A DNA stretch of 64,000 nucleotides. Source: Sphingomonas taxi. Its GTDB lineage: Bacteria > Pseudomonadota > Alphaproteobacteria > Sphingomonadales > Sphingomonadaceae. Positions within the stretch are counted from its first letter, which is position 1, and the number at the start of each line of letters is the position of its first letter. The stretch covers positions 2,599,001 through 2,663,000 of the forward strand of contig NZ_CP009571.1 in assembly GCF_000764535.1 (NCBI RefSeq). The letters run 5' to 3'. The notes beneath the pieces are model-generated. The model did not search any database. It worked only from the letters and a program-made list of their open reading frames with translations, and was not told where the DNA came from. Both the position numbers and the translations under genes were made by a program. Shown here piece by piece: positions 22,056-27,995 of the stretch.

Positions 22056-22433
22056 TCAGAGGAGGTAGGGAACACGGATCCCCGGCATGGTCGCCGGGAA
22101 ATCCTTGATGTTACGGGTGACGAGGATGCGGCCATGCCGCGTCGCGCTCGCCAGGATGATGGCATCGGGCGATTTCAGCCGACGGCGTTCGCGACGCAGC
22201 GCGGCGGCACGCAAGGCGATGTCCGCATCGATCTCGTCCACCTTGAATCCGCCAAGAAACGCCTGCGCGTTTTCCACGTCTCGCGACGCGCCCTTCGACA
22301 AGACCTCGACCCAGACCATCCGGCTCACCCATGCGCCACCTTGATCGAGCGCACGCCGGATCTCGTCGCGCGCCGGACCGAAGCCCGCCAGCGCATCGAT
22401 GACGATGTTCGAATCGAACGCGTGGCTGGTCAT
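22056..22433 (-). CDS. PIN-domain ribonuclease toxin, VapC type
   Basis: A 125-residue PIN-domain protein, the family expected to cleave RNA using a Mg-binding acidic cluster. It has FDSNIVIDAL (first Asp), the Glu in VWVEVLS, KSPDAIILASA and VTRNIKDFP, so the four acidic positions of the active site appear intact. Its start overlaps the stop of the antitoxin gene by 4 nt, the usual toxin-antitoxin arrangement. The stop lies 15 nt before glmS, so the pair could read into glmS. Confidence 0.85.
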   Translation of the reverse strand: MTSHAFDSNIVIDALAGFGPARDEIRRALDQGGAWVSRMVWVEVLSKGASRDVENAQAFLGGFKVDEIDADIALRAAALRRERRRLKSPDAIILASATRHGRILVTRNIKDFPATMPGIRVPYLL

Positions 22434-22807
22434 GCGGGGTCGGGATAGATGGGGTCGGGATATTTGCCGGCCACCATGTCGAGATAGATCTGGCGCTGGC
22501 GGTCGTCTTCCGCGTCGAACAGATCGGGAAACTCGGCTTTGACCTCTTCATAGTCGTCGTCCCACGGACGGGTCCAGCTCGCTCGCTCGCGGCGCTGCCA
22601 TTCGACCGCATCGCCGATATCGGTGCGATCCTTCCACAGGCCGAAGCCCCGATCGAGCCAATCGCGATCGTCCTCCGACTGCGCCTGCGACCGGAACGTG
22701 GCGACGGCCTCGCGCAGCATCGACGCGCGCGACCGGCCGAGCTTCGCCGCACGCTCGTCGAGCCAGCGCAGGTCATCGGGCGGAAGGTCGGCCAGGACTC
22801 GCGTCAT
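22430..22807 (-). CDS. VapB-like antitoxin with ribbon-helix-helix N-terminus and long tail
   Basis: A 125-residue protein partnered with the PIN toxin. The N-terminal 45 residues (VLADLPPDDLRWLDE followed by LGRSRASMLREAV) form a ribbon-helix-helix DNA-binding domain that should autoregulate the operon. The acidic, Trp-rich tail (about residues 50-125, with DRDWLDRGFGLWKD) is longer than in most VapB proteins and probably wraps the toxin. An inverted ATATC-GATAT (about 22816-22833) just upstream could be its operator. Confidence 0.78.
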   Translation of the reverse strand: MTRVLADLPPDDLRWLDERAAKLGRSRASMLREAVATFRSQAQSEDDRDWLDRGFGLWKDRTDIGDAVEWQRRERASWTRPWDDDYEEVKAEFPDLFDAEDDRQRQIYLDMVAGKYPDPIYPDPA

Positions 22808-24954: not shown

Positions 24955-25944
24955 TCAGCCCCACCGCCACTTCGCCCAGAGGTGCCGCGCCAGCATCGCC
25001 GGCGGCATGCGCAGCCAGTGCGAGCGGACGTAGAAGGCGAGCCGCGTCGCCGGGCGGATCGGCCGCCCCCAATCGTCGCGCGCCAGCAGCCGGCGCAGGT
25101 AGAGCGCATCGCCCCGCGCGAGCGTGCGATAGGCCGGGTCGACCGGCGTCGCGAACAACCGGTGCGTCAGCCGCAGCGCTCTCGCCACCTCGCGCGACAG
25201 GCCGTGCTCCGCCGCCCGCACGCGTGCGCCCTCGCTGCCGTGATCGTCGATCAGGCAGTGGATGTCCCACAGGTTGCGCAGCCCCCCCGCGAGGTCGCCG
25301 TCGGCGAACAGATGCGCGGCGGCATGGACCAGCATGTCGTCGGGCGACAGCACGGCAAGGCCGGTGCCGAGCGGCTGCGCCTGGGCCAGCAGCGCCGCCG
25401 CATCGGGCGTGATCCGCGCGGTGAGCGGCAGGATGGTATGATGCACGTCGATCATCCGGTCGCGGTCGCGATGGATCAGCGGCGGCAGCTCGTGCATCCA
25501 GCGGCGATAATAAGCGTCGTCATAGGGATCGGGCTTGACCCATTCCCACCCCGCCGCGAGCAGCGCCGCCTCGACCGCGTCGAGCGACCCGCGCGGCACG
25601 AGGATGTCGAGGTCGCCGATCGAGCGGCCGCGCCCGGCGAGCAACCCGGCGGCGACGAACGCCGTCCCCTTGAGCAGCACCACCGCACAGCCCAGCGGCG
25701 CGAGCGCGCGCCGCGCCATCTCCGCCTCCCACAAGGCGGCGCGGCGGCCATTCTCGGCGGCGGCGCGCGCATCGGCGAGCAGCAGCGCGACATCCTCGGG
25801 CAGCGGCAGGCCATCGAGCCGATAGGCGAGCGTGCCGAGCAATTGCTCCGCGCGCGCCGTCGTGACGAGGCCGATCCAGTCGGTGTCGAGCGCCAGCGAC
25901 TGCGGGTCGGCGAGCGCGCGCGCGAGGATCAGAGCGTCCGCCAC
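24955..25944 (-). CDS. Nucleotidyltransferase-family protein of the HprK/PqqD-like cassette
   Basis: A 329-residue protein related to the NTP_transf_5 nucleotidyltransferase family. The core GRGRSIGDLDILVPRGS supplies the paired acidic metal ligands, followed by a helical C-terminal domain with HRDRDRMIDVHHTI and MLVHAAAHLFADGDL. The GTG start at 25944 overlaps the end of the kinase gene by 16 nt. Proteins of this type accompany HPr-kinase-like enzymes in some lasso-peptide clusters such as paeninodin. The substrate here is unknown; it may modify the same target as the kinase. Confidence 0.78.
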   Translation of the reverse strand: MADALILARALADPQSLALDTDWIGLVTTARAEQLLGTLAYRLDGLPLPEDVALLLADARAAAENGRRAALWEAEMARRALAPLGCAVVLLKGTAFVAAGLLAGRGRSIGDLDILVPRGSLDAVEAALLAAGWEWVKPDPYDDAYYRRWMHELPPLIHRDRDRMIDVHHTILPLTARITPDAAALLAQAQPLGTGLAVLSPDDMLVHAAAHLFADGDLAGGLRNLWDIHCLIDDHGSEGARVRAAEHGLSREVARALRLTHRLFATPVDPAYRTLARGDALYLRRLLARDDWGRPIRPATRLAFYVRSHWLRMPPAMLARHLWAKWRWG

Positions 25945-26783
25945 ACCGCCTCCACCTGCGCGATCGCCGCGGCGCCGTCGGGATAGTCGATCGCATGCGC
26001 CGGCGTCGTGCGCACCAATCGGGTCAATGCATCGAATCCCGCCTGGCCGAGCGCGACGTAATTGGTCGACGCCTGAGTCAGCCGGACGAAGGATTCGGAC
26101 GGCAGCACGCCGCGCGTCTCCGCCGCGAAGCCGTGCCGCGGGTAGAGCAGCATCGCGGGCGCGGCGGGCTCGTCCATCGCACCGACCGCGAGCGCGTCGG
26201 GCACCATATGGCGGATGTCGCCCTTGGGCGTGCCGGTGAGCAGGGGGCCGAGCTTGGCGTCGGGCCGCGCGGCGATGGCGGCGGCGATCGCCGCATTCTT
26301 GAGGCTGATGAGGCGGGGAAACGGGTGGACGAGCCCGGTCTCGGGATCGATCAGCGCGAATTCGTCGCTCATGAACCGCCAGCCGCGCGCCGCCAGCAGC
26401 GTCGCCAGCGTCGACTTGCCCGCCCCCGATTCGCCGGTGAGCAGCAGCGCCTGACCGTCGCGCTCGACGCAGGCGGCATGAAGCAGCAGATAGCGGCGCC
26501 CGCCCAGCGCCAGTTGCAGGTTCATCGCCATTTCGGCGGCGAGCAACCCCTGCGCGAGCGGCAGCGGTGCCGCCTCGGGCAGCATATAGTCGCCGGCGAT
26601 GCGGATCGACGGCCGCAGCCAGCGCCGCCACCAATGCGTCGCCTCCAGCCGCACGGTGAAATCAGGCAAATTGGGCGAGGGATAATAACGGTAGAGCTCG
26701 CGCAACGCATCGATGGGCGCGCGCCAGTCGCTGCCGACGCGAAAGCCGATCGGCCCGATCCGCACGGTGAAGACGTGCCTCAT
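25929..26783 (-). CDS. HprK-related kinase A
   Basis: A 284-residue kinase related to the C-terminal half of HPr kinase/phosphorylase. The Walker A loop TGESGAGKSTLA follows the conserved LHAACVERDG, and the acidic pair in FMSDEFALID should bind Mg. It lacks the N-terminal HprK domain, and there is no ptsH gene nearby, so HPr is unlikely to be the substrate. Homologues tailor lasso peptides by phosphorylating a C-terminal serine. The start overlaps the PqqD-like gene by 4 nt and the end overlaps the nucleotidyltransferase gene, so all are one operon. Confidence 0.85.
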   Translation of the reverse strand: MRHVFTVRIGPIGFRVGSDWRAPIDALRELYRYYPSPNLPDFTVRLEATHWWRRWLRPSIRIAGDYMLPEAAPLPLAQGLLAAEMAMNLQLALGGRRYLLLHAACVERDGQALLLTGESGAGKSTLATLLAARGWRFMSDEFALIDPETGLVHPFPRLISLKNAAIAAAIAARPDAKLGPLLTGTPKGDIRHMVPDALAVGAMDEPAAPAMLLYPRHGFAAETRGVLPSESFVRLTQASTNYVALGQAGFDALTRLVRTTPAHAIDYPDGAAAIAQVEAVWRTL

Positions 26784-27046
26784 AGCGCCTCGACCAGCCC
26801 CGCCGCGACCAGTTCGTCGAGCCGGGCCGCGAGCGCGTCGCGGCTGGCGTCGCCGAGGTCGTAGCGCTCGCCGAGGCGGACCAGCAGCGTCTCGAGGTCG
26901 AGCGTCGTGTCGGCGAGCAGCGCGAGGATCTCGGGCGCGGGGCTGACCAGCAGATGGGTGATCCCGGACGGGCGATGGAAGACGGCGGTGAAGGCGTCGA
27001 GTTCGGCGGTCAGCAGCGCCGCGTCGGCCGGGGCGCGATAGCGCAA
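26780..27046 (-). CDS. PqqD-family peptide chaperone of the HprK-related system
   Basis: An 88-residue protein with the PqqD/RRE fold, which in known systems binds the leader of a precursor peptide and presents it to modifying enzymes. Visible features are the beta segment AVFHRPSGITHLLVSPAPEILALL and the helical end RDALAARLDELVAAGLVEAL. It has the size of a stand-alone RRE. It lies 4 nt after the Tat-signal protein gene and overlaps the kinase gene by 4 nt. I recall families named for this cassette (HPr-rel-A system), but could not search. Confidence 0.82.
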   Translation of the reverse strand: MRYRAPADAALLTAELDAFTAVFHRPSGITHLLVSPAPEILALLADTTLDLETLLVRLGERYDLGDASRDALAARLDELVAAGLVEAL

Positions 27047-27050
27047 GGCG

Positions 27051-27488
27051 TCAGCCGCGCGGCATCTGCAACGAGGCGAAGCAGGTGAAGCCTCCCTGCC
27101 CGCGCTGCAGCCTGCGGATATAGCTCACATAGGCGCGGTTGCTCTCGTAGGTCGTGCCGGGCAGTTGCGCGCCGGCGAGCGCGCGCTTGACCTCTTCGCC
27201 CTTGAACGGGCGCGAGGCGGGGGGAAACGCGCCCTTGGTACCGGGGGCGACGACGTTGCCGGCCGGATCGATGAAGCGGCCCGCCCGCCCCAGATCGGGC
27301 ACCGGGATCTCGCAGGTCATCACCGAACCCGCGGTCTGCGCGAGCGCCGGCCGGATCGACATCACGGCGCCGGCGGTCACCGCGCCGAGCATCAGCACGC
27401 GGCGCCGGCTGGCGACGGCGGCATCGTCCGGCTCCGCCGGTCCCGCCTGCGCTGGATTGTAGCCGTCGACCGGCGTCTCGTCACTCAT
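27051..27488 (-). CDS. Tat-signal protein of unknown function heading the kinase cassette
   Basis: A 145-residue protein starting at ATG 27488, with AGGGG upstream; a longer GTG start is less likely. Residues 1-28 are an acidic, Pro-rich leader. ASRRRVLMLGAVTAGAVM then ALAQ is a twin-arginine signal, so the mature 95 residues would be exported folded. These contain two cysteines (MTCEIPVP and GGFTCFASLQ) and many small and basic residues. No enzyme motif is visible. As first gene of a tight operon with RRE, kinase and nucleotidyltransferase genes, it is a candidate substrate, but this is inference. Confidence 0.7.
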   Translation of the reverse strand: MSDETPVDGYNPAQAGPAEPDDAAVASRRRVLMLGAVTAGAVMSIRPALAQTAGSVMTCEIPVPDLGRAGRFIDPAGNVVAPGTKGAFPPASRPFKGEEVKRALAGAQLPGTTYESNRAYVSYIRRLQRGQGGFTCFASLQMPRG

Positions 27489-27995
27489 GGCACCCCTGCT
27501 ACCGCCACTGCCTTTCACATTCGCTAACCACTGGCAAGCGCAGGAAATGTGCGGTGGTGGGACGGAGGGGAAATTCCGGTGTGAAGCTCGGGGTCGATGA
27601 AGTCGCCGGGCTCCCGTCCATCACGGTTTCGCCGCGCCACCTCCCCTTGGTGGGGGCTATGGCAGACGGGCGCAAATCTGGTTCCTTCGTGTTCCCAACC
27701 CACCCCGTCACCCCGGACGTGTTCCGGGGTCCACTCTGCGGCGGGGAGTAAGGCTTGAGCCTTCCTGCCGTTCCCTCGCGGCCCGGTGGACCCCGGAACA
27801 CGTCCGGGGTGACGGAGCTGATGAGGAAACCGATCGATCCTCATGAATCGCAGCCATATGCGATTGCCCTGCCTGGCGGGGACCGCTCCGCGTCAACCGA
27901 GTAGTGGAGGGGGCGGGAGCCCGGCCGCTCGATCGCGAGGCTCGGAAGCGACATCCCCCCTCCCCGCCGCGGCCAAGCTCGGCTAGCCACGCGTC
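27489..27995. other. Non-coding gap with repeats, upstream of phoR
   Basis: About 500 nt without a convincing gene. It holds a partial copy of the CCTCCCC-type repeat (around 27636-27660) and a full GTCACCCCGGAC palindrome (27705-27815). The rest is GC-rich DNA leading to phoR, in which I see no clear promoter or Pho box. Confidence 0.7.
27705..27815. repeat. Dispersed palindrome family A, copy 1
   Basis: Perfect 30-nt inverted arms at 27705-27734 and 27786-27815 (CCGTCACCCCGGACGTGTTC at the start of the left arm) flank a 51-nt middle. Three further copies occur in this window. Confidence 0.95.

Follow-up and report, generated by a model that had tools for sequence, protein, structure and literature searches.

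A window of 64,000 nucleotides from Sphingomonas taxi (contig NZ_CP009571.1, positions 2,599,001 to 2,663,000 of the forward strand; 'the window' refers to this whole stretch) carries on its minus strand, at 24955-27488, four genes in almost gapless succession, which encode a protein with a predicted twin-arginine translocation (Tat) signal (the 'Tat protein'), a PqqD-type protein, an HprK-related kinase and a nucleotidyltransferase. We find that this four-gene set is a genuine functional unit: the same arrangement is found again in other genera, families and classes and is thus not due to chance. The label 'orphan' given to it in an initial annotation was wrong. As judged from the genomic data, the Tat protein is very likely the partner of the kinase module, and we lean towards reading the whole as a cassette dedicated to modifying and exporting a single small protein. 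The genes and the sites that matter below are as follows.

27051..27488, minus strand: Tat protein, 145 residues (ATG at 27488, stop at 27051); predicted twin-arginine-signal preprotein and proposed substrate
27408..27488, minus strand: acidic n-region of the Tat protein, residues 1-27; negative charge conserved, sequence not
27339..27407, minus strand: twin-arginine signal core, residues 28-50, which ends in AxA and holds the conserved segment [TS][LIVMA]x[SPR]; proposed leader and recognition element
27324..27326, minus strand: Ser55, four residues before Cys59, the first mature cysteine; leading candidate phosphorylation site
27072..27083, minus strand: C-terminal motif Cys136-F-A-Ser139; Ser139 is the second candidate site
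26780..27046, minus strand: PqqD_rel_X, predicted PqqD-type peptide-binding protein of the RiPP recognition element (RRE) type, RiPP being a ribosomally synthesized and post-translationally modified peptide; 88 residues (TTG start at 27046, stop at 26780); TIGR04353
25929..26783, minus strand: HprK-related kinase A, 284 residues (ATG at 26783, stop at 25929); TIGR04352
24955..25944, minus strand: NTP_transf_5 nucleotidyltransferase, 329 residues (GTG start at 25944, stop at 24955); PF14907

From these parts we infer the chemical steps, their order and the role of the signal. The PqqD-type protein would bind the preprotein in the cytoplasm at its signal-peptide region, the signal peptide acting both as export signal and as leader; the kinase would phosphorylate an invariant serine, with Ser55 as the first candidate and Ser139 as the second; the nucleotidyltransferase would then act on the phosphoserine and add a nucleotidyl or phospho-sugar group; and the folded, finished protein would be exported by the twin-arginine route and cleaved by the general signal peptidase. 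Phosphorylation of the Tat protein appears likely, and action of the nucleotidyltransferase on the added phosphate is plausible.

HprK-type kinases in combination with PqqD-type proteins and NTP_transf_5 proteins are tailoring parts of peptide natural products in the published systems, as far as described in the portions of those reports available to us. If the proposed mechanism holds, several groups of Proteobacteria would apply such chemistry to proteins that are folded and exported, and the export signal would serve as the modification leader. TIGR04352 and TIGR04353, which are curated families with no assigned function, and the 'uncharacterised' PF14907 thereby gain a concrete Gram-negative candidate substrate, which makes their function directly testable.

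Operon layout and catalytic parts

The Tat gene is separated from the PqqD gene by a 4-nt gap, and overlaps of 4 nt (PqqD and kinase) and 16 nt (kinase and nucleotidyltransferase) join the remaining genes; these coordinates, with start codons read by eye and all four genes on the minus strand, bear out the initial description of nearly fused genes. The family assignments it had proposed also stood. The 88-residue PqqD-type protein reaches 54.2 bits against TIGR04353 (cut-off 35) and the kinase 231.3 bits against TIGR04352 (cut-off 200), both above the curated cut-offs of NCBIfam models named for an 'HPr-rel-A system', and the nucleotidyltransferase scores 169.2 bits against PF14907 (cut-off 31.2). 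The model names cover these parts only: the Tat protein of the window has no match among NCBIfam or Pfam models at E values up to 1. A phmmer search against solved structures matched no PqqD or RRE chain.

The kinase contains an intact Walker A loop (GESGAGKS), and its residues H102, G120, G122, K123 and T125, like the acidic pair D140-E141, do not vary in an alignment of kinases (27/27), in agreement with what had been noticed at first sight. Its structure model (predicted local distance difference test (pLDDT) score of 95.1) adopts the fold of HprK and phosphoenolpyruvate carboxykinase (PEPCK), with the P-loop, histidine and acidic catalytic set in place, and aligns with PEPCK across nearly the full length. 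Whereas the P-loop core, the histidine, lysine and acidic pair and the fold are thus shared with HPr kinase/phosphorylase and PEPCK, the cassette kinase scores only 24.8 bits against the HPr(Ser) kinase/phosphorylase model TIGR00679, far under its cut-off of 240. It is probably not the housekeeping HprK, because the genome holds a separate HprK-like gene (locus L002), which lies between a sensor kinase gene and a RapZ-like gene (gene names assigned by eye).

In the nucleotidyltransferase, K92, G93, D111 and D113 (the DxD motif) are present in 74/74 proteins and D166 in 73/74. Fusions also occur, joining PqqD to the kinase in L224 and the kinase to the nucleotidyltransferase in L119 and L179.

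Co-occurrence within and beyond Sphingomonadaceae

Within Sphingomonadaceae, the TIGR04352 kinase is found above its cut-off in 45 of 149 genomes (the window genome counted), and the Tat-protein profile matches 46, including every one of the 45 kinase-positive genomes. Among the 104 kinase-negative genomes, 103 have no profile match; the single match (G017, E value 5.6e-4) was rejected as a Tat-protein homologue, being an unrelated exported protein. The association is strong (45/45 compared to 1/104, Fisher test, p = 1.5e-37, uncorrected for shared ancestry) and extends to close relatives, as three same-genus pairs (G021/G107, G035/G118 and G050/G127) each comprise one member with both genes and one with neither. 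In G107, gph directly adjoins phoR, and the cassette is thus cleanly missing from the site where others carry it.

That site is stable. Across 50 sphingomonad loci (45 from the family sample and five from further genomes of the window's genus; L033-L076 and L132-L136), an opposite-strand phoR-like gene stands beside the Tat gene in 43, glmU is present in 40 and gph in 34. The initial annotation had staked its substrate proposal beforehand on conservation of the Tat gene with the other three, and we find the Tat gene in all kinase-positive genomes of the family; in 47 of the 50 loci it is part of the kinase locus and lies ahead of the PqqD gene. Three genomes have the set unlinked, and all three retain the Tat gene: in G042 and G122 it adjoins a phoR-like gene with the other three genes located elsewhere, and in G040 it lies together with the PqqD gene beside phoR, with the kinase and nucleotidyltransferase genes elsewhere.

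Phylum-wide, TIGR04352 is found above cut-off in 61 of 398 genomes, none of which belongs to another order of the same class. We examined 27 loci outside Sphingomonadaceae, and a Tat-signal protein lies near the kinase in 25 of them, 15 recognized by the profile (the weakest, L129, at an E value of 7e-3) and 10 of another type recognized by eye; in L118 and L124 neither a Tat-signal partner nor a PqqD-type protein was detected. When named genomes were scanned with ten non-sphingomonad kinases as queries, at least 585 relatives were confirmed, and the best 80 loci, which were examined, span Magnetococcales, Chromatiaceae, Methylococcaceae, Accumulibacter, Massilia, Rubrivivax and others. Among these best 80 of at least 585, a Tat-signal protein is present in 76, of which 71 are upstream on the kinase strand (those of L153, L204, L206, L220 and L224 are counted but lie otherwise), a PqqD-type protein in 79 and a nucleotidyltransferase in 73. 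This set overlaps with the phylum sample by at least five loci (L154, L165, L167, L179 and L222).

The mature parts of the Tat-signal partners that occupy this same slot are of at least three kinds, and we assigned the partners by eye to classes I to III. Class I partners end in C-[WYFL]-x-S or a near variant; class II partners have a similar C-terminal stretch that lacks the cysteine and retains the serine; and class III partners, which include those of L107, L109 and L110, carry a motif like SPG[YF]WKN. None of 11 partners tested matched Pfam, and ten sampled partners gave a single weak NCBIfam match, far under the cut-off. The class III-type proteins form an undescribed family of roughly 200 residues with a Tat signal and the SPG[YF]WKN-like motif, that accompanies the kinase cassette in Massilia, among others (for example, L178:7102-7710, L212:7030-7662 and L107:8488-9210).

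Signal, candidate serines and competing readings

The initial annotation had compared the cassette with the tailoring enzymes of lasso peptides, an analogy that is right in kind, although a closer published relative exists. The paeninodin and pseudomycoidin pathways (PadeK, PsmK, PsmN and B1) have a kinase, a nucleotidyltransferase and a PqqD-like protein of matching kinds, the same histidine, lysine and paired acidic residues, and a conserved serine in the substrate (here, the proposed substrate); according to the available portion of PMC9266682, PadeK and PsmK phosphorylate the C-terminal serine of the lasso precursor, and PsmN attaches hexoses. The cassette differs in having no cyclase or B2 protease and in that its partner, instead of being a lasso peptide, is an exported protein with a mature part of roughly 95 residues. 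Absence of both enzymes, as first noted, was confirmed: a genome-wide search for the leader protease family PF13471 gave no match at E ≤ 0.001, and the four genome matches to the asparagine synthase-type macrolactam cyclase family PF00733 all lie outside the window. A lasso pathway was rejected on these grounds.

The closer relative is the linear polyphosphorylated peptides (LPPs) of Bacillota, whose lpp clusters, as described in the consulted part of PMC13381572 (2026), combine an RRE, an HprK-like kinase and an uncharacterised NTP (nucleoside triphosphate) transferase. By that account, LppK phosphorylates Ser3, directly past the leader cleavage site, the precursors are 35-200 residues long with a conserved N-terminus and a variable C-terminus, and the authors regard LPPs as restricted to Bacillota. 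The terms Pseudomonadota, Proteobacteria and Tat were not found in the main text of PMC13381572 so far as it was available, and our literature searches found no description of this cassette. Both systems group a discrete RRE-type protein (here, predicted), an HprK-like kinase and an NTP transferase in one cluster; in both precursor sets a conserved N-terminal region precedes a variable C-terminus; and the serine phosphorylated just past the LPP leader has a parallel in the conserved serine just past the signal. LPP clusters are also reported near capsule loci, and a few cassette loci seem to have polysaccharide genes nearby.

The differences lie in leader and export. LPP clusters encode their own archaeal-type SpI peptidase as well as a transporter resembling MsbA, and LPP leaders carry a YxxP motif, whereas here the leader would be the twin-arginine signal. 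We found neither an SpI-like peptidase nor an MsbA-like transporter in the operon or in six nearby genes checked against Pfam, the rest of the window not having been profile-searched for them, and the [YW]xxP RRE-binding motif of lasso and LPP leaders occurs in only 3 of 142 partners, so that leader recognition must differ from both. We therefore rejected membership in the LPP family itself. LPP is nevertheless the closest characterised system, and the cassette is best read as its counterpart in Gram-negative bacteria, where the Tat signal would double as leader, and general signal peptidase and the Tat route would take the place of the dedicated peptidase and transporter.

A twin arginine followed by an uncharged h-region is present in 142 of 145 partners from five sets: 47 sphingomonad proteins (45 positive), a set of 15 (all), 51 named proteins outside class III (all), 25 named class III proteins (all) and seven gammaproteobacterial class III proteins (six). 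Two proteins with no signal in the frame read, L048 and L065, are scored as misses in this count and, together with L126, are omitted from the counts of [YW]xxP and of serine near cysteine. Near the signal end, the segment [TS][LIVMA]x[SPR] is found in 43/47, 12/15, 48/51 and 24/25 proteins of the first four sets; it reads TL[RQ]SG in 26 of the 51 named proteins that fall outside class III and in 0/47 sphingomonad proteins. The initial suggestion that the acidic N-terminus serves as leader fared less well. The 27 residues ahead of the twin arginine in the window protein include six acidic and no basic ones, and among 36 aligned sphingomonad relatives (36 of the 47 locus proteins; the others had unclear starts or were near copies and were left out) the net charge of the n-region is -7 to -2 in every case; its sequence is not conserved and its length varies from 12 to 36. 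The signal core is the better recognition candidate, because it is conserved across differing mature proteins.

Counted on all 47 sphingomonad locus proteins, Ser55 and Cys59 are present in 47 and Cys136 and Ser139 in 46, the exception (L075, from the 86% complete genome G007) having broken frames. All four residues are present in 156/156 rows of a wider alignment, which leans to close relatives since its 120 database proteins are the best-scoring of 1466 relatives (E ≤ 0.001, among 7991 candidates scored). With cleavage predicted by eye after ALA and before Q, Ser55 lies five residues past the cleavage site. Outside class III, 106 of 111 partners (45/45, 13/15 and 48/51) have a serine 1-5 residues before the first mature cysteine, and 24/25 named class III proteins have one 1-4 residues after it; shuffled sequences lead one to expect a serine on either side in 22.8, 8.8 and 29.8 proteins, respectively, and in 18.7 of the class III set.

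The C-terminal serine competes with Ser55, and we consider it possible, if on balance unlikely, that the modified site is the Ser139 motif, as in paeninodin-type lasso peptides, with Ser55 merely structural. Near-universal conservation of Ser139 in sphingomonads, the occurrence of [ACG]xxS[LIFMV] within the last 45 residues of 41/51 named partners outside class III (9.9 in shuffles), retention of a serine at this place in class II in the absence of the cysteine and the C-terminal target of PadeK (PMC9266682, as available) all point that way, but the motif was not seen by eye in class III, whereas a serine beside the first mature cysteine occurs in all classes, and the LPP serine reported in the consulted part of PMC13381572 sits just past the leader.

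Several observations weigh against the proposed modification-and-export mechanism, in which modification of the Tat protein is itself a candidate step suggested by sequence. The PqqD-type protein goes undetected by profile in 9/77 loci and the nucleotidyltransferase in 3/77; the NCBIfam Tat signal model TIGR01409 gives no match on the window protein; and, besides the near absence of [YW]xxP, the segment [TS][LIVMA]x[SPR] occurs in only 2/7 gammaproteobacterial class III proteins and also in three of the 14 ordinary Tat signals taken as controls from this genome (11 of 13 above the cut-off, L247 and L248 left out, and three of ten below). With 24 compared to 18.7 shuffled of 25, the class III contrast for serine near cysteine is weak alone, and folding could explain the conservation of either of the two competing serines. 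The nucleotidyltransferase step is the weakest part, because deletion of lppN had no visible effect in the LPP host, according to the available part of PMC13381572.

Other roles for the Tat protein appear less probable still. The kinase and nucleotidyltransferase might act in the synthesis or modification of a small molecule or a lipid-linked sugar, with the Tat protein as an exported enzyme or carrier that uses the product later; we think this improbable, as the set includes a peptide binder of the PqqD type, which in L224 forms one protein with the kinase, and the partners are small and diverse, with no Pfam match among the 11 tested. Slightly less credible is that the cassette makes a RiPP-like natural product whose precursor, the Tat protein, is trimmed to a bioactive peptide. 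RRE, kinase and nucleotidyltransferase are indeed RiPP tailoring parts, and LPP precursors resemble the Tat partners in size range and in their conserved and variable ends (PMC13381572, as far as consulted), but the operon has no protease or transporter gene, PF13471 is unmatched genome-wide, and the conserved residues are distributed along the mature part, of which residues 61-145 are modelled with block pLDDT values of 71-95, as in a folded protein. Mere co-inheritance by position of two functionally unrelated elements would suit the stable site beside the phoR-like gene (43/50 loci) but is highly improbable, given retention of the Tat gene in the three unlinked genomes, the lack of a true homologue in any kinase-negative genome of the 149, and the Tat-signal partners in the same slot in other classes.

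Extending the proposed mechanism beyond this operon, we tentatively suggest that the cassettes may represent a widespread, undescribed class of exported proteins of Proteobacteria whose Tat signal serves as a RiPP-type leader. While the preprotein is still in the cytoplasm, an RRE-guided kinase and a nucleotidyltransferase would attach a phospho-nucleotide or phospho-sugar to it, and the Tat route would then export the finished protein, possibly for joining to surface polysaccharide.

Neighbouring genes and related cassettes

On one side the operon is flanked by a divergent histidine-kinase gene, which we consider phoR-like from its position next to pst-like genes, and on the other by a convergent HAD-family gene. 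By Pfam, the six genes near the operon are of PIN, ribbon-helix-helix, HAD, GlmU-like, histidine kinase and PBP-like types. At 22056-22807 on the minus strand, the gene for the PIN-domain protein (PF01850) overlaps that for the ribbon-helix-helix protein (PF01402), forming a VapBC-like pair that adjoins glmS. An inverted repeat of the repetitive extragenic palindromic (REP) type, seen by eye at about 27700-27820, lies in the long gap that separates the Tat gene from the phoR-like gene.

Relatives also carry a second type of cassette (L266, L267 and L269), in which a protein of roughly 360-400 residues that resembles a PqqD-kinase fusion is followed by a PF14907 nucleotidyltransferase. Its kinases score 47-69 bits, under the TIGR04352 cut-off, and in L267 the cassette adjoins a Gly/Pro-rich open frame.

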